The notes below the pieces were generated by a model. It saw only the letters and a program-made list of their open reading frames with translations, did not search any database and was not told where the DNA came from. This document shows positions 5,537 through 11,271 of a stretch of DNA of 26,365 nucleotides, one piece after another. How positions within the stretch are numbered: the first letter of the stretch is position 1; the number at the start of each line of letters is the position of its first letter. The translations under genes were made by a program, and so were the position numbers. The stretch comes from a virus, in IMG/VR virus record IMGVR_UViG_3300032753_000147, positions 1 through 26,365 of that record. One strand, 5' to 3'.

Positions 5537-6751
5537 ATGTTTGGTATAACCCCATTTGCGGGTGCTCCGTTTGCGAGTATCCCTAGTACTGGCACAGTTG
5601 TCTCCATCAGTGGGGTCACAGGTACAGGCTCCGTAGGCTCGGTCTCACAAAGCTTTGCAAATGCCCTTGCAAGCGTAAACGGCACAGGGTCAGCCGGCAC
5701 CGTTGTGGCCACACCACAACTTGCTCTTTCAGGTGTTACCGGCACAGGCTCAGTTGGCTCCGTCACAGAATCCATTGCTGAAACCCTTTCCGGTGTTACT
5801 GGCACAGGGTCAGTTGGCTCCGTTTCCCCAAGCCTCGCCGCCGCGCTGACAGGCGTTACAGGCACAGGCTCCGTGGGCACAGTCACGGCCACACCCCAAA
5901 TTGCGCTCACAGGCGTCGCCGGCACCGGCTCCGTGGGGTCGGTCTCCCCAAGTTCTGCGGTCGCACTCACAGGCGTTACAGGCACGGGCTCCGTGGGCAC
6001 CGTGGTGTTCAACATCAACGCTGCACTCTCAGGCGTCACAGGTACGGGCGCGGTTGGATCAGTTGCTGGGAATATCACCGTCGCGCTCACGGGCGTTGCG
6101 GGTACTGGAGCAGTTGGTTCCGTCGCCGCGCAGGTGTCCGAGCAGCTCACAAATACCGTGGGTACAGGCAACGTGGGTACAGCCACGGCGAACATTACCG
6201 TCGCGCTCACTGGTGTTGTGGGTACTGGAGCAGTTGGCTCAGTCACACCCGGAAAGTCCGCCGCGCTCACAGGCGTCACAGGCACAGGCTCCGTGGGCAC
6301 CGTGGTGTTCAGTATCAATTCCGCGCTCACGGGGGTAACGGGCACAGGTTCAGTGGGCACCGTGGTGTTCAACATCAATGCCGCGCTCACAGGCGTCGCC
6401 GGCACAGGTTCAGTTGGTTCAGTCATTGCTGGCAAATCCGCTGCGCTCACAGGCGTCACAGGCACAGGCTCAGTGGGCACCGTGGTGTTCAATATCAACG
6501 CTGCGCTCACAGGCGTCGCAGGTGCGGGTTCTGTGGGTACATTCGGCACGTTGTTCTGGAGCGCGATCACTAACGGTGAAAATGCAAACTGGGGCGTGAT
6601 TAACAACCCGGAAACACCAAATTGGGCGACAATTGGAACAAGTCAAACACCTGCGTGGGGCGTGGTCAGTACCAATGAATCTGCGGGTTGGGGAACAGTT
6701 GACACAACTGAGGACGCCCAATGGGAATTGGTTGACCTGCATGATACGTAA
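5537..6751 (+). CDS. Tandem-repeat fibre-like protein with Trp-periodic tail
   Basis: A 404-residue protein in three parts. Residues 1-22 are a hydrophobic leader (MFGITPFAGAPFAS). Residues 23-342 are sixteen back-to-back 20-residue repeats with core ALTGVTGTGSVGTV followed by a variable six or seven residues such as VFNINA, TPGKSA or SPSLAA. Residues 341-396 hold six tryptophans spaced exactly 11 residues apart (W341, 352, 363, 374, 385, 396), with steps such as WGVINNPETPNW. The repeats have almost no charge and suggest a beta-solenoid or extended fibre. AGGGGG at 5527-5532 is the ribosome site. Position within the fibre cassette supports a virion surface protein. No enzymatic motif is seen. 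Confidence 0.75.
   Translation: MFGITPFAGAPFASIPSTGTVVSISGVTGTGSVGSVSQSFANALASVNGTGSAGTVVATPQLALSGVTGTGSVGSVTESIAETLSGVTGTGSVGSVSPSLAAALTGVTGTGSVGTVTATPQIALTGVAGTGSVGSVSPSSAVALTGVTGTGSVGTVVFNINAALSGVTGTGAVGSVAGNITVALTGVAGTGAVGSVAAQVSEQLTNTVGTGNVGTATANITVALTGVVGTGAVGSVTPGKSAALTGVTGTGSVGTVVFSINSALTGVTGTGSVGTVVFNINAALTGVAGTGSVGSVIAGKSAALTGVTGTGSVGTVVFNINAALTGVAGAGSVGTFGTLFWSAITNGENANWGVINNPETPNWATIGTSQTPAWGVVSTNESAGWGTVDTTEDAQWELVDLHDT
5603..6562 (+). repeat. Sixteen tandem 60-bp in-frame repeats
   Basis: Sixteen consecutive units of exactly 60 bp, each encoding 20 residues, with no indels between units. The first half of each unit is conserved (GVTGTGSVG) and the last 20 or so bases vary. From about 5963 onward many units repeat almost identically, including a TVVFNINA type that recurs at units 7, 13 and 15 and alternates with other types. 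The more uniform downstream half suggests recent unit duplication or conversion. Confidence 0.9.
6557..6724 (+). repeat. Coding repeat: six Trp codons every 33 bp
   Basis: Six TGG codons begin at 6557 and recur at exact 33-bp steps, encoding an 11-residue repeat W-x-x-[IV]-x-x-x-[EQ]-x-x-x. The DNA between Trp codons is diverged while the period is exact, so it is selected at the protein level, not a recent DNA duplication. Confidence 0.85.
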
Positions 6752-6760
6752 AGGGAAAAT

Positions 6761-7249
6761 ATGGCACTCGTTTTAGCAGATCGCGTACAACAGACTGGCA
6801 CGGCCAACACGACGGTCAGCTTTACCCTATCTGGTTCTGTCTCTGGCTATCAATCCTTCGCCGTCGTAGGCAACACAAACACCACGTACTACGCCGCAAC
6901 AGACTTGTCTGGGAACTGGGAAGCGGGTATCGGTACTTATGCTACTGGTGGCACTCTGACCCGCACAACGATTCTTTCGTCAAGCAACTCTGGCGCTGCG
7001 GTCACTTTCACTGGTACTGTTACGGTTTTCTGTACGTATCCAAGCGAGAAATCGGTCAACTTAGATGCAAACGGTATTGCATACGCCCCCACATTTAACG
7101 CTTCAAACGGTTTGATTTCGAACAACCAGACTATTTCTGCAAACGCAACGGTCAACACTGGGGACAACGGGTTTTCCGCAGGTCCAGTATCTGTGGCTAC
7201 AGGCGTAACCGTAACCGTGGCAACCGGCTCCATCTGGACGGTTGTGTAA
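6761..7249 (+). CDS. Tail fibre-like protein with N-terminal fibre domain
   Basis: A 162-residue protein. Residues 1-100 (ALVLADRVQQTGTANTTVSF, then GYQSFAVVGNTNTTYYAATD, then TRTTILSSSNSGAAVTF) match a domain I recall at the N-terminus of many phage fibre proteins. The C-terminal 40 residues form a beta module (TISANATVNTGDNGFSAGP, then VTVATGSIWTVV) that also ends the next gene. AAAGGG lies just before ATG 6761. It probably builds or decorates the receptor-binding apparatus. Short length and lack of a distal catalytic domain suggest one subunit of a multi-protein fibre. Confidence 0.68.
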   Translation: MALVLADRVQQTGTANTTVSFTLSGSVSGYQSFAVVGNTNTTYYAATDLSGNWEAGIGTYATGGTLTRTTILSSSNSGAAVTFTGTVTVFCTYPSEKSVNLDANGIAYAPTFNASNGLISNNQTISANATVNTGDNGFSAGPVSVATGVTVTVATGSIWTVV

Positions 7250-7263
7250 GAACCCCTTAGAAT
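7235..7263 (+). promoter_or_regulatory. Candidate sigma70-type promoter before the GTG-started fibre gene
   Basis: TGGACG at 7235-7240 and TAGAAT at 7258-7263, separated by 17 bases, resemble -35 and -10 boxes (4/6 and 5/6 consensus matches). They span the end of one fibre gene and one of the larger gaps in this tightly packed stretch (36 bases before GTG 7286). It could give separate transcription of the downstream fibre genes. Matches of this quality occur by chance. Confidence 0.25.
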
Positions 7264-7285
7264 GTAAAAAGCACAGGAGCACAAA

Positions 7286-7867
7286 GTGTCATCTGCATAC
7301 ACCTCATTACTGCAATACGTTCTTCCGGCGACGGGAGAAGACCTCAACACTTGGGGCACGTTACTCAATACTTCACTGACTCAGTTGGTGGAAGACTCGG
7401 TTGCAGGCGCAACCACACAAGATGTCACTTCGGCGGACTGGACGCTTACGATTGCAAACGGTGCAACAGACCAAGCGCGTATGGCTATCTTGATAGCAAC
7501 AGGTTCCCCCGGTACGACGCGCTACATCTACGCTCCCGCGCAAAGCAAAATCTATTGCATCATCAACCAATCAAATTCCATTATTCAACTTGTTGGCGGC
7601 AGTGCAGGTAGCGCAACAACAGGTATTTCAATCTCGGCTGGATCAAGCGCAGTAGCTGCTTGGAACGGTAGCGACTTTGTGCAAGCTGCGGGTAACGGCG
7701 GCGCGGTTGGCGGCGGTAATGACCAGATTTTTTTCTTGAACGGCCAGACTGTCACCTCAAGCTATACCATTCCAAACAACGACAACGCAGGTTCATTTGG
7801 GCCTATTACCGTTAACAGCGGTATTACAGTAACCGTCCCCACAAATTCCACTTGGACTGTGGTTTAA
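7286..7867 (+). CDS. Tail fibre-like protein
   Basis: A 193-residue protein starting at GTG 7286, with AGGAG at 7274-7278. The N-terminal part (SLLQYVLPATGEDLNTWGTL, then VEDSVAGATTQDVT) and the repeated beta segment SADWTLTIANGATDQARM, followed by TRYIYAPAQSKIYCIINQSN, resemble a common phage fibre domain. A Gly-rich hinge (GNGGAVGGGNDQ, residues about 137-148) leads to a C-terminal module (TVTSSYTIPNNDNAGSFGP, then ITVTVPTNSTWTVV) like that ending the preceding gene. Function is inferred as part of the host-binding fibres. The next gene has AAGGAG directly after this stop. Confidence 0.66.
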   Translation: MSSAYTSLLQYVLPATGEDLNTWGTLLNTSLTQLVEDSVAGATTQDVTSADWTLTIANGATDQARMAILIATGSPGTTRYIYAPAQSKIYCIINQSNSIIQLVGGSAGSATTGISISAGSSAVAAWNGSDFVQAAGNGGAVGGGNDQIFFLNGQTVTSSYTIPNNDNAGSFGPITVNSGITVTVPTNSTWTVV

Positions 7868-7876
7868 GGAGCATAA

Positions 7877-8539
7877 ATGTCATCAGTAAAAATGCAAGGC
7901 GGCGCAAGCGGGACTGGTTCCGTCACGTTGCTCGCACCCAACACAAACAACACAGATGTGCTGACACTGCCTGATGTGGCGGCGGATACTCTGGCCTCGC
8001 TTGCCGCAACGCAGACGCTCACAAATAAAACACTGGGTTCTGGCCTTGTGGCTGGGGCAAGCTACTTGACCTCGGGTACTGCGGTTGCGTCTACCAGTGG
8101 CACAAGCATCGACTTTACGAGCATTCCAAGCTGGGTCAAGCGTATTACTGTGATGTTTCAAGGTGTGTCTTTAAGCGGCACATCTTCCTATTTAATTCAA
8201 CTTGGCGCTGGAAGTGTTACAACTTCAGGTTATTTAGGATATTACAGTTATCAAGAAAACGGTGGAACACCTGCTGCAAGCACTTCTACCGCTGGATTTC
8301 AAGTTTATGAAAATAATGCTTCAAATTTAAGATATGGAACAGCCAGATTAGTAAACATTTCAGGAAACAATTGGATTTGTGATGGTGTTTTTCTTGGAAC
8401 AAGTTCTTCGTCCGTTTCCGCATATTTTACTACTGGCGGGTCTATTGCTCTTTCTGGCACTCTTGACCGTGTACGTATCACAACAGTAAACGGCACAGAC
8501 ACCTTTGACGCTGGCTCAATCAACATTCTTTGGGAATAA
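7877..8539 (+). CDS. Fibre/adhesin protein, paralogue A, with AT-rich central domain
   Basis: A 220-residue protein. It has an N-terminal lead with TQTLTNKTLGSGLVAGASYL, a strand block SIPSWVKRITVMFQGVS, a variable centre at about residues 95-190, and a conserved ending LDRVRITTVNGTDTFDAG then SINILWE. The lead, strand block and ending are nearly the same in the protein at 10663-11271; the centre is not. Counted GC falls from 37/60 at 8041-8100 to 19/60 at 8281-8340, so the centre looks acquired or swapped. It should be an exposed receptor-binding subunit. AAGGAG precedes ATG 7877. Confidence 0.7.
   Translation: MSSVKMQGGASGTGSVTLLAPNTNNTDVLTLPDVAADTLASLAATQTLTNKTLGSGLVAGASYLTSGTAVASTSGTSIDFTSIPSWVKRITVMFQGVSLSGTSSYLIQLGAGSVTTSGYLGYYSYQENGGTPAASTSTAGFQVYENNASNLRYGTARLVNISGNNWICDGVFLGTSSSSVSAYFTTGGSIALSGTLDRVRITTVNGTDTFDAGSINILWE
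8027..8052 (+). repeat. 26-bp direct repeat, copy 1 (partner 10771-10796)
   Basis: This 26-base stretch, encoding KTLGSGLV with flanking bases, is identical to 10771-10796, with more divergent homology continuing on the downstream side. It lies in the conserved lead of paralogous adhesin genes and could serve as a crossover point between them. Confidence 0.8.
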
Positions 8540-8542
8540 GCT

Positions 8543-8575
8543 ATGACAGCAAAACTTGACGGCACCAAAAAATGA
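8543..8575 (+). pseudogene. 10-codon stub of the glycine-rich adhesin start
   Basis: ATG 8543 opens a 10-codon frame, MTAKLDGTKK, ending at TGA 8573-8575. Seven of its first eight residues match the start of the adhesin gene at 9245 (MVAKLDGT), but every shared codon other than ATG and AAA uses a different third or synonymous base. The stub follows the adhesin at 7877-8539 by three bases, where the glycine-rich adhesin would be expected to begin. Its stop overlaps ATG 8572 of the endonuclease. I infer that it is the original gene start cut off by the endonuclease insertion, now perhaps working as a leader for translation of the endonuclease. Confidence 0.7.
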
Positions 8576-9244
8576 ACTGCGCTGTATATTGGATTCGCTG
8601 CAAAGACCATACTGACATGTTCAGTCAGGGGTATATCGGCGTGTCCAAAAATTCAGAGCGTCGTTTTATCCAGCATCAAACCAGAACAGAAAACCCACAC
8701 CTCAAAAAAGCCATACAAAAATACGGTTGGGACAATTTGATTAAAACTGAGATTTTGGTTTCTGATGAATCGTATTGCCTTGACATTGAAGCTAAATTAC
8801 GACCGGCAGAAAAGATTGGCTGGAACATTTGTGTTGGCGGTGGTATGCCACCGTTGTTAATTGGCCAAACGGCTTTAATAGGCATAACTCCGTGGAACAA
8901 AGGCAAGACGTACAGCGAGGCCACCAAAAAGAAAATTAGTGCTGCTGTGCGTTTGTCCATGCAAAATCCAGAGCGCAAAGAGGTCAACCGACAGTTGCTG
9001 CTAGGCAAGCCCTCGTTGATGCGCGGCAAAAAACACACCGCAGGTACTCGTGCGAAAATGAGCGCAGCAAAAAAGGGTTTACCAGCAAAAAACAAAGATG
9101 CACCCATAACCGAAGAGCAAAGGCAGAAATTGATTTTTGCGGTTCGAGCGTATTCTTGGAAATGCCCGCACTGCCAAAAAGAAGGCTTTGGACGGGGCTC
9201 GGCTACCAGATGGCATTTTGATAATTGTAAAAAAGGAGTGACAA
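8572..9244 (+). mobile_element. Homing endonuclease insertion in the adhesin start
   Basis: The inserted unit runs from the stub overlap to just before the restored ATG 9245. It is bounded by two versions of the same MxAKLDGT gene start, one truncated (8543) and one functional with its own ribosome site (9233-9238). No inverted repeats or transposase are seen, consistent with spread by double-strand-break repair. The exact borders are inferred. Confidence 0.6.
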
Positions 9245-9255
9245 ATGGTCGCTAA
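8572..9255 (+). CDS. GIY-YIG homing endonuclease with NUMOD3 motifs and zinc finger
   Basis: A 227-residue free-standing homing endonuclease. The GIY-YIG nuclease fold covers about residues 1-91: VYW at 5-7, YIG at 21-23, RRF at 30-32 with the catalytic Arg, H35, E73 as likely metal-binding Glu, and N85 in GWNICVGG. Two NUMOD3-type DNA-binding motifs follow (PWNKGKTYSEATKKKISAA at 107-125, and a second at 145-169 with RGKKHTAGTRAKMSAA). A C-terminal zinc finger has C198, C201, H215 and C219 in CPHCQK and RWHFDNC. All key residues are present, so it is probably active. Composition is AT-rich (19/60 GC at 8701-8760). It starts in an ATGA overlap with the stub and ends 11 bases inside the adhesin gene, and its 3' end supplies that gene's AAGGAG site. 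Confidence 0.88.
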   Translation: MNCAVYWIRCKDHTDMFSQGYIGVSKNSERRFIQHQTRTENPHLKKAIQKYGWDNLIKTEILVSDESYCLDIEAKLRPAEKIGWNICVGGGMPPLLIGQTALIGITPWNKGKTYSEATKKKISAAVRLSMQNPERKEVNRQLLLGKPSLMRGKKHTAGTRAKMSAAKKGLPAKNKDAPITEEQRQKLIFAVRAYSWKCPHCQKEGFGRGSATRWHFDNCKKGVTNGR

Positions 9256-10135
9256 ATTAGATGGTACTAATGGTTTGATCCAGCAGTACGATTACCAAAC
9301 ACCATCAACTGGGTTCTCGTACACATTCGCTGCGGGCACAACCAACCTTGTGATGAACCCTGCTGCTACTTTGGCAACGGGGACAATTACCATGCCTGCA
9401 ACCCCTGCGGACGGCATGACCATCACATTCAGCTCGACCAAGACAATCACCGCGCTGACAGTCAACGCCAACACAGGTCAATCGATCTCAAGTGCGCCGA
9501 CTACCTTGGCCGCTGGCGGGTTGTACACATTCCTCTATCGTCTATCAAGCACAACTTGGTACGTGCAGATTGCACCCGCAACTGGAGGTCTTCCCGGCGT
9601 CCTTGGCCAAGCATTCACCACAACTGGCTCAGGCCAGACATTCACAATTCCTTCAGGCGTGACAGCGCTGAAAGTGACTGTGGTGGCGGGTGGCGGTAAT
9701 GGAGGAACGCTTAGTGGGTGTGGTAGTGGTGGCGGTGGCGGGGCTGGTGCATCCGCTATTTCTTACCTAACAGGTCTAACCTCAGGAAATACAATTTCCG
9801 TAACTGTTGGCGCAGTAGGCGGGTCTTCTAGCATTTCTTCTGGCACTCAAACTATAACCACAGTTACATGCACTGGCGGCAGCAATGGAAGCAACTCCGG
9901 GCCGGGCGGCGCTGGCGGAGCAGCTTCTGGCGGGTCGTTAAATTTTAACGGTGCTAGAGGAAGCGATAACATCATGGTTGGCGGAAATTCTATTTTTGGC
10001 GGCGGTGGTTCTTCGCATTGGGGGACGGCAGGTTCTGGGTATGCCGCAACTACTTACGGCGGTGGCGGTGGCGGTAATGTCAATAGCGGCTCAGGTGGTG
10101 CAGGTTACCAAGGCGTAGTCATTTTTGAATGGTGA
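9245..10135 (+). CDS. Glycine-rich phage adhesin
   Basis: A 296-residue protein. Residues 1-112 are a beta-rich fibre domain (KLDGTNGLIQQYDYQTPSTG, then TITMPATPADGMTITFSST, then YTFLYRLSSTTWYVQI). Residues 120-150 (AFTTTGSGQTFTIPSGVTAL, then VTVVAGGG) lead into a long Gly-rich region with runs such as GSGGGGGAGAS, GPGGAGGAASGG, FGGGGSS and YGGGGGGN, ending YQGVVIFEW. Glycine-rich tips of this type form polyglycine-II-like sandwiches with variable loops in phage adhesins such as T-even gp38; applying that here is inference. The start ATG 9245 follows AAGGAG inside the endonuclease gene. The stop overlaps the next start (TGATG). Confidence 0.78.
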   Translation: MVAKLDGTNGLIQQYDYQTPSTGFSYTFAAGTTNLVMNPAATLATGTITMPATPADGMTITFSSTKTITALTVNANTGQSISSAPTTLAAGGLYTFLYRLSSTTWYVQIAPATGGLPGVLGQAFTTTGSGQTFTIPSGVTALKVTVVAGGGNGGTLSGCGSGGGGGAGASAISYLTGLTSGNTISVTVGAVGGSSSISSGTQTITTVTCTGGSNGSNSGPGGAGGAASGGSLNFNGARGSDNIMVGGNSIFGGGGSSHWGTAGSGYAATTYGGGGGGNVNSGSGGAGYQGVVIFEW

Positions 10136-10662: not shown

Positions 10663-11271
10663 ATGACAACTCAAATTTCAGGAACATCCGGCGTAACATT
10701 CCCTGCGGGCGGCGTAGGCAACCCTGCGGGCGCAGTGGTCGGCACAACCGATTCACAAACCCTGACCAACAAAACACTGGGTTCTGGCCTTGTGGCAGGT
10801 GCAAGTTATTTAACTTCTGGTACAGCACAGGCCAGCACTAGCGGTACGTCAATCACTTTTAGTTCAATTCCATCTTGGGTTAAACGAATTACTGTGATGT
10901 TTAACGGTGTGAGTACTAGTGGCTCATCACCAATTCTTTTGCAAATAGGTTCAGGCTCTATAACATCAACTGGATATATTAGCGCAGGAAATTATGGATT
11001 AAGTTCCTTGGGTGGAGGAGTTACTGCAACAAATGGTTTTTTATGCACCGCTGTTTTTACCGCAGCAAATACTTGTTCTGGTACTACATTTGTAAATTTA
11101 GTTTCTGGTAATTCATATATTTCTACATCTAATGTAATTGAAAACGTAGGAAGATTTAACGTTGCCACTGGCTCTGTAACATTAACTGGCGCTCTTGATC
11201 GCGTAGTCGTCACCACAGTCAACGGTACTGACACTTTTGATGCTGGCTCTATTAACATCTTGTACGAATAA
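10663..11271 (+). CDS. Fibre/adhesin protein, paralogue B, with AT-rich central domain
   Basis: A 202-residue protein. The N-terminal lead is ISGTSGVTFPAGGVGNPAG, then DSQTLTNKTLGSG. From GSGLVAGASYLTSGTA on it parallels paralogue A (7877-8539), including SIPSWVKRITVMFNGVS. The centre (about residues 85-175) is unlike A, and the ending LDRVVVTTVNGTDTFDAG then SINILYE matches again. Counted GC drops from 41/60 at 10681-10740 to 16/60 at 11101-11160, much lower than the flanks. AAGGAG lies at 10651-10656. It is likely a second exposed receptor-binding subunit. Confidence 0.7.
   Translation: MTTQISGTSGVTFPAGGVGNPAGAVVGTTDSQTLTNKTLGSGLVAGASYLTSGTAQASTSGTSITFSSIPSWVKRITVMFNGVSTSGSSPILLQIGSGSITSTGYISAGNYGLSSLGGGVTATNGFLCTAVFTAANTCSGTTFVNLVSGNSYISTSNVIENVGRFNVATGSVTLTGALDRVVVTTVNGTDTFDAGSINILYE
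10771..10796 (+). repeat. 26-bp direct repeat, copy 2 (partner 8027-8052)
   Basis: Identical to 8027-8052; see that entry. The two copies lie 2.7 kb apart in the same orientation and the same reading frame of paralogous genes. Recombination between them would delete the endonuclease and the glycine-rich adhesin. Confidence 0.8.

Follow-up and report, generated by a model that had tools for sequence, protein, structure and literature searches.

A GIY-YIG homing endonuclease gene inside the start of a phage tail gene, accompanied by a recoded copy of that start

The locus and its empty counterpart

The window considered here is the whole 26,365-nucleotide stretch, a 26-kb virus contig from IMG/VR that is represented by a single metagenomic record. 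Within it, a stub encoding MTAKLDGTKK and closed by a TGA codon (8573–8575), a complete endonuclease gene and a glycine-rich gene follow one another (Table 1), as a first-pass annotation made from the letters alone had reported. The glycine-rich gene, read from ATG 9245, encodes 296 amino acids and begins MVAKLDGTNGLIQQYDYQ; its product matches PHROG tail-fibre families and Pfam Gly_rich_2, and the name "adhesin" given to it earlier is an inference. The reading frames are tightly interlocked: the endonuclease start overlaps the stub stop (ATGA), and the endonuclease stop, TAA at 9253–9255, falls within the new tail-gene start, giving these two ORFs an overlap of 11 nt.

Table 1. Features of the locus, with positions in the window
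Feature	Position	Strand	Basis or remark
Upstream tail-associated gene, left flank of target	7877–8539	+	L002 synteny; PHROG 29482
Stub ORF MTAKLDGTKK*	8543–8575	+	8543–8568 is the tail gene's native start
Inserted element (inferred): endonuclease, Shine-Dalgarno and recoded first codons	8569–9275	+	both junctions against L002
GIY-YIG/NUMOD3 homing-endonuclease ORF, 227 aa	8572–9255	+	Pfam, PHROG, alignment A1
Shine-Dalgarno AAGGAG, within last endonuclease codons	9233–9238	+	22/23 related loci with a Shine-Dalgarno of at least 4 nt here
Recoded tail-gene start, codon 1 to first base of codon 11	9245–9275	+	12/33 nt differ from native
Remainder of glycine-rich tail-fibre-like gene	9276–10135	+	near-identical to L002 through codon 108; Gly_rich_2, PHROG tail families

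The endonuclease matches Pfam GIY-YIG (PF01541; 4.9e-5, above the gathering cut-off), NUMOD3 (E = 5.7e-9, above the Pfam cut-off) and the homing endonucleases of PHROG 314 (2.8e-24), and both Pfam domains are present in all eight members tested. Alignment A1 has the invariant positions Y6, Y21, G23, R31, E73 and N85, and the C-terminal motif CxxC...H....C is conserved in it as CxxC...RWHFxNCK. With its catalytic domain and conserved catalytic positions the enzyme belongs to the GIY-YIG family, and it also has the DNA-binding region, NUMOD modules or zinc motif, expected of the Seg and intron-type enzymes. An intron- or intein-encoded endonuclease is not what lies here, as the gene has its own stop codon and the target begins again from a new ATG; a group I intron or other known RNA gave no match above cut-off in 8300–9600. 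KVP40 SegD is a distant relative, the best relative of the endonuclease is 56% identical, and no exact second copy of the element was found. The genome-collection scan returned distant relatives only, at no more than 37% over any long stretch, and a PDB search with the endonuclease alignment gave no meaningful match.

Scanning for the downstream N-terminus gave 80 loci with a similar start (L002–L081), none of which has a doubled start. The most informative of them, L002, lacks the endonuclease and is collinear with the window, gene order being the same to the left and to the right (92% identity by blastn over window 6344–8166, about 1.8 kb on the left side). Its gene, like those of many endonuclease-free paralogues, has one start that is read straight through, MTAKLDGT-NGLIQQYDYQ, encoded by ATGACAGCAAAACTTGACGGCACC AAC GGC CTG ATC CAG CAG, and it is thus the uninterrupted locus that the annotation had proposed to look for. 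Endonuclease-free relatives carrying both short starts, or a stub that aligned to an unrelated gene, would have refuted the earlier reading; instead, all of L002–L081 have a single start, and the stub is identical to the native starts of L002 and L018 (24/24 over 8543–8566). The window shares 26 nt with L002 from the stub's first base, departs from it after ACCAA (8568) and rejoins it at 9276, both junctions being sharp. From this comparison, the insert comprises the endonuclease ORF, the Shine-Dalgarno and a recoded copy of the cut-off codons, about 707 bp in place of five native bases (CGGCC).

The two starts agree in 7 of 8 residues and in only 15 of 24 bases, with a synonymous change in every shared codon except ATG and AAA. 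The first reading had described this recoding correctly, and only its extent needs adjusting, since the divergent block reaches 9275, slightly beyond the 24 bases compared at the time. Measured against L002, 12 of the 33 bases of codons 1–11 differ, the sole non-synonymous codon being codon 2 (T to V), against 6 of the 291 bases of codons 12–108 (285/291 match; Fisher p = 2e-9). The codon limits of this block, like those of the blocks compared in other loci below, were picked after inspection of the alignments, and such p-values are therefore a description of the contrast and not the test of a hypothesis fixed beforehand. Because L002 is an exact empty site and the difference is confined to codons 1–11, the resemblance between stub and second start is not due to chance. 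In named phages, relatives of the target gene were limited to matches of 33–39%.

Two further features of the region can be recorded here. Shortly 3' of the tail gene, 10663–11271 holds a paralogue of the 7877–8539 gene, with which it shares TLTNKTLGSGLVAGASYLTSGTA and DTFDAGSINIL-E ends, a case of module shuffling in the region. Elsewhere, 5537–6751 is a 404-aa ORF made of repeated GVTGTGSVGSV-like units, over which the reverse strand is also open for 360 aa.

Related elements in other phages

Related endonucleases were inspected at both ends of each gene. At 23 loci, one of them in the cultured Methylophilales phage MEP301, the stop codon of a related GIY-YIG endonuclease is found at −17 to +2 nt relative to a tail-fibre-like gene start; several families are represented among these downstream genes. 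The Shine-Dalgarno in the last endonuclease codons averages 5.65 nt in length, against 3.19 nt at control positions. The earlier proposal that the endonuclease came with its own version of the target's start and a ribosome site is upheld, and the arrangement recurs in related elements, whereas the description of adhesin start codons as an unusual homing site was too narrow, because the same endonuclease lineage is found repeatedly at tail-gene starts. Alleles of one site with and without the endonuclease are available for the window and L002, for MEP301 and L537, and for L244 and L330.

A recognisable stub remains in 11 loci. In L247, the stub MTVTINGTTK* is paired with a second start MTVTISGTTG, and in L244, MPVSIV* with MPVSIIGNSG; the L082 stub is joined in frame to the endonuclease (MTVSINGTS...) and its second start reads MTVSISGTNG. 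In L084, L085, L243, L248 and L249, the endonuclease frame opens inside the first few codons of the native gene and hence uses the native ATG. Seven further loci that have native relatives combine a divergent start with near-identity after it, for example L085/L399 (15/24 differences in the start, 0/66 after), L249/L402 (10/36 and 0/78), L247/L020 (8/27 and 1/33) and L242/L048 (8/24 and 9/96). Even the start codon differs in the copy carried by the L249 element, where the second start is TTG (L249:3659) and the listed native relatives have ATG. On the upstream side, L244 matches the native L330 at 25/25 bases before the gene and at 15 bases of the stub.

In the cultured phage MEP301, the endonuclease gp20 begins MASIKLQGDTS-LYWIRL and the tail-fibre gene gp19 begins MASIKLQGDVSGELTI, while the exact empty counterparts L536 and L537 have the uninterrupted ATG GCA TCA ATT AAA CTA CAA GGC GAC ACC TCT GGT GAG CTA. 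The endonuclease start equals that of L536/L537 through ...ACC TC, a stub identity of 32 nt; the tail-gene start, ATG GCT AGT ATT AAA TTA CAG GGG GAT GTG, is recoded through codon 10, and the next 29 nt are again identical to L536/L537. In the genome paper, the sole description of ORF20 is that of an endonuclease with a presumed role in host DNA degradation (PMC8024684).

An exception is L477 (2001–2700), in which the endonuclease and its MEP301 counterpart are 96% identical. Stub and second start alike read MASIKLKGD, with recoding at only 3 of the 9 shared codons; of the four codons that changed, three lie at codons 8–11 beside the insertion point, among them ACC to GTG. Strong recoding is therefore not obligatory, and L477 represents either an early state or one homogenised by gene conversion.

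Genes for more distant endonucleases (L089, L090, L257, L260, L261, L264 and L265) lie beside other genes or are unresolved, so the habit of occupying tail-gene starts belongs to the close clade. Separately, L245 and L246 (2960–3010 in each) have a common GGCGATCTCTCAAGCTAATGCAGC at the left end with different stubs upstream, possibly the element's own left boundary. In L170 and L172 (2850–2914 in each), a sequence coding for an HHMDNCK-like endonuclease C-terminus directly precedes a tail-gene start MASTINAK..., possibly a further divergent endonuclease with the same habit.

A proposed mechanism and the readings that compete with it

These observations support the first-pass interpretation overall, most of which was confirmed. 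The explanation that we regard as probable is that a free-standing GIY-YIG homing endonuclease entered a phage tail gene at codon 9, as part of an element whose 3' end would supply a Shine-Dalgarno, placed in the last endonuclease codons, and a recoded copy of all target codons 5' of the insertion. The target's native initiation site would be taken over by the endonuclease, through in-frame fusion or, in the window, through the ATGA stop/start overlap, and the target would be translated anew from the supplied start into an almost unchanged protein. The enzyme is then inferred to cut the native start of endonuclease-free relatives, after which repair would copy the element in; there are no cleavage or homing data. 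The recoded spelling may keep the restored start uncut, may prevent recombination at the duplicated start from deleting the element, or both, which is likewise inferred. As far as comparison of sequences can establish them, the insertion, its junctions, the stub identity, the recoding, the new Shine-Dalgarno and the recurrence elsewhere are secure.

The suggestion that the stub drives endonuclease translation is plausible, given the in-frame fusions to the native ATG in MEP301, L082, L085 and others; reinitiation at ATGA in the window is an inference. It can be observed that at 8560–8575, ACC AAA AAA TGA, slippage by −1 within the A run would join stub to endonuclease (MTAKLDGTKK-MNCAVYW), in a hypothetical product that resembles the natural fusions of L082 and MEP301. 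Such a ribosomal frameshift is possible, and is not needed given the ATGA overlap.

The resolved insertion points fall in the codon before a conserved glycine, at about codons 9–11: AA|C GGC in the window, TC|T GGT in MEP301 and, if the shared left end is AAAATGA, AC|A GGC in L247. This position suggests, from the nucleotides alone, that the enzyme's recognition target may be a conserved coding sequence of GTNG/GDTSG type, present early in many tail genes. The stop codon of the endonuclease often lies inside the new start, so that the last endonuclease codons, the Shine-Dalgarno and the start form one short dual-coding stretch.

It remains to ask why the second start is recoded. One answer, which we judge unlikely but which deserves to be kept, retains the architecture and makes the recoding passive: the second start would have been acquired from a homologue whose start had diverged, and selection against cleavage would have played no part. 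In its favour, stub and second start differ in 48 of their 69 shared codons, only modestly above the 39.4 that unrelated native starts coding for similar peptides would give (P = 0.017), L477 is only weakly recoded, and some second starts are at 3–4 mismatches in 21 bases from native paralogues. The weak recoding of L477, the modest size of this excess and the lack of an exact second copy of the element also count against our main explanation, as does the fact that tail genes recombine often: in the upstream syntenic block, 6.7% of 33-nt windows also differ by at least 12 bases, although those divergent windows are not tied to a conserved peptide or to an insertion junction. Passive capture, for its part, has to accommodate second starts that are further from any known native start (mean 5.3 mismatches) than natives of different genes are from one another (4.1; p = 0.01), and those of MEP301, L478 and L479, which track the peptide of their own stub closely and yet change its codons. 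The right junction is also at or near the insertion point in resolved cases; in resolved pairs these junctions cluster near codons 8–14, unlike the ends of random conversion tracts. As the excess of codon differences is significant but modest, selection for recoding is favoured but not proven.

A second answer, to which we give the same low credence, is that the recoding was selected mainly against recombination between the direct repeats formed by stub and second start, and thus against loss of the element, rather than against cleavage. It would account for recoding that spans the whole duplicated segment, codon 2 included, and for the change of ATG to TTG in L249; against it, L477 changes mostly codons 8–11, as if the insertion-side part mattered most, and L084, L085 and L249 are among many elements whose second start is still divergent with the stub mostly lost, so that no repeat remains.

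The two remaining readings can be set aside. Tandem tail genes with similar starts do exist in these phages, but an origin of stub and second start as two paralogous genes, with the body of the first displaced by the endonuclease, is very improbable and was rejected, because the empty-site relative L002 has one gene, its flanks match both sides of the window, and stub and second-start gene together rebuild it, with the identical upstream flank of L244/L330 agreeing. An assembly chimera or sequencing artefact, conceivable for a single metagenomic virus record, is most improbable of all, being contradicted by the isolate genome of MEP301 and by the same architecture in many independent contigs.

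With the main explanation, a broader picture is somewhat favoured: a phage endonuclease lineage specialised on tail-fibre start codons, which takes the initiation site and pays for it with a ribosome site and a cleavage-proof recoded start, in the manner of a natural home-and-rescue drive that is mobile among different tail-gene families sharing no more than a short N-terminal motif.

Comparison with known systems

By the usual view, free-standing homing endonucleases stay out of coding sequence except with the aid of introns, inteins or bypassing. The element described here points to another route into a gene without killing it, namely the synonymous rewriting of the disconnected start together with a supplied ribosome site, and it is a possible route for tail-fibre genes to swap starts. 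No description of this 5' version was found in the open-access papers searched, subscription journals being outside the scope of the search.

The closest precedent is found in the mobile ORFs of fungal mitochondria, known from atp6 of Allomyces and from atp6, atp9, cox2 and nad3 of Glomus, with LAGLIDADG endonucleases or, in atp9, a GIY-YIG enzyme (PMC3630166). There, as in the window, an endonuclease lies in a gene together with a copy of the cut-off coding end that is divergent in nucleotides and conserved in protein, and a native remnant is left behind (PMC3630166). The fungal elements replace the 3' (C-terminal) end and form an in-frame hybrid in mitochondria (PMC3630166), whereas the window element replaces the 5' end in tailed phages, brings a new Shine-Dalgarno and start codon, and has its endonuclease take the native initiation site. 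It thus shares one hallmark of the replaced-end mobile ORF, the divergent copy of the disrupted coding end, and lacks the other, a 3' end fused in frame; it is the 5'-end bacteriophage counterpart.

Among phage systems, the Seg endonucleases of T4 are likewise free-standing GIY-YIG enzymes, often overlapping an upstream ORF, promoterless and expressed polycistronically; they occupy positions between genes and can cut at sites hundreds to thousands of bases distant (PMC2988022), whereas the window endonuclease is inserted inside a coding start that is duplicated and recoded. T4 mobA with the gene 60 bypass insert, which may protect against cleavage, and Aeh1 mobE in nrdA resemble the window in having an endonuclease within a gene whose function is preserved by an accessory sequence or a split, and differ in relying on HNH enzymes and on a split protein or bypassed insert (PMC2988022, PMC5009743). 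In the window, by contrast, synonymous rewriting of the first codons keeps the target protein whole.

Finally, the synthetic HomeR home-and-rescue drives place a nuclease cassette in an essential gene along with a recoded piece that restores function and resists cutting (PMC7968924), a design logic that the window element parallels, with resistance to cutting inferred in its case. These are engineered CRISPR constructs in insects (PMC7968924), and the likeness is one of analogy only, without kinship. A natural counterpart of recoded-rescue gene drives becomes directly testable, including in cultured MEP301.
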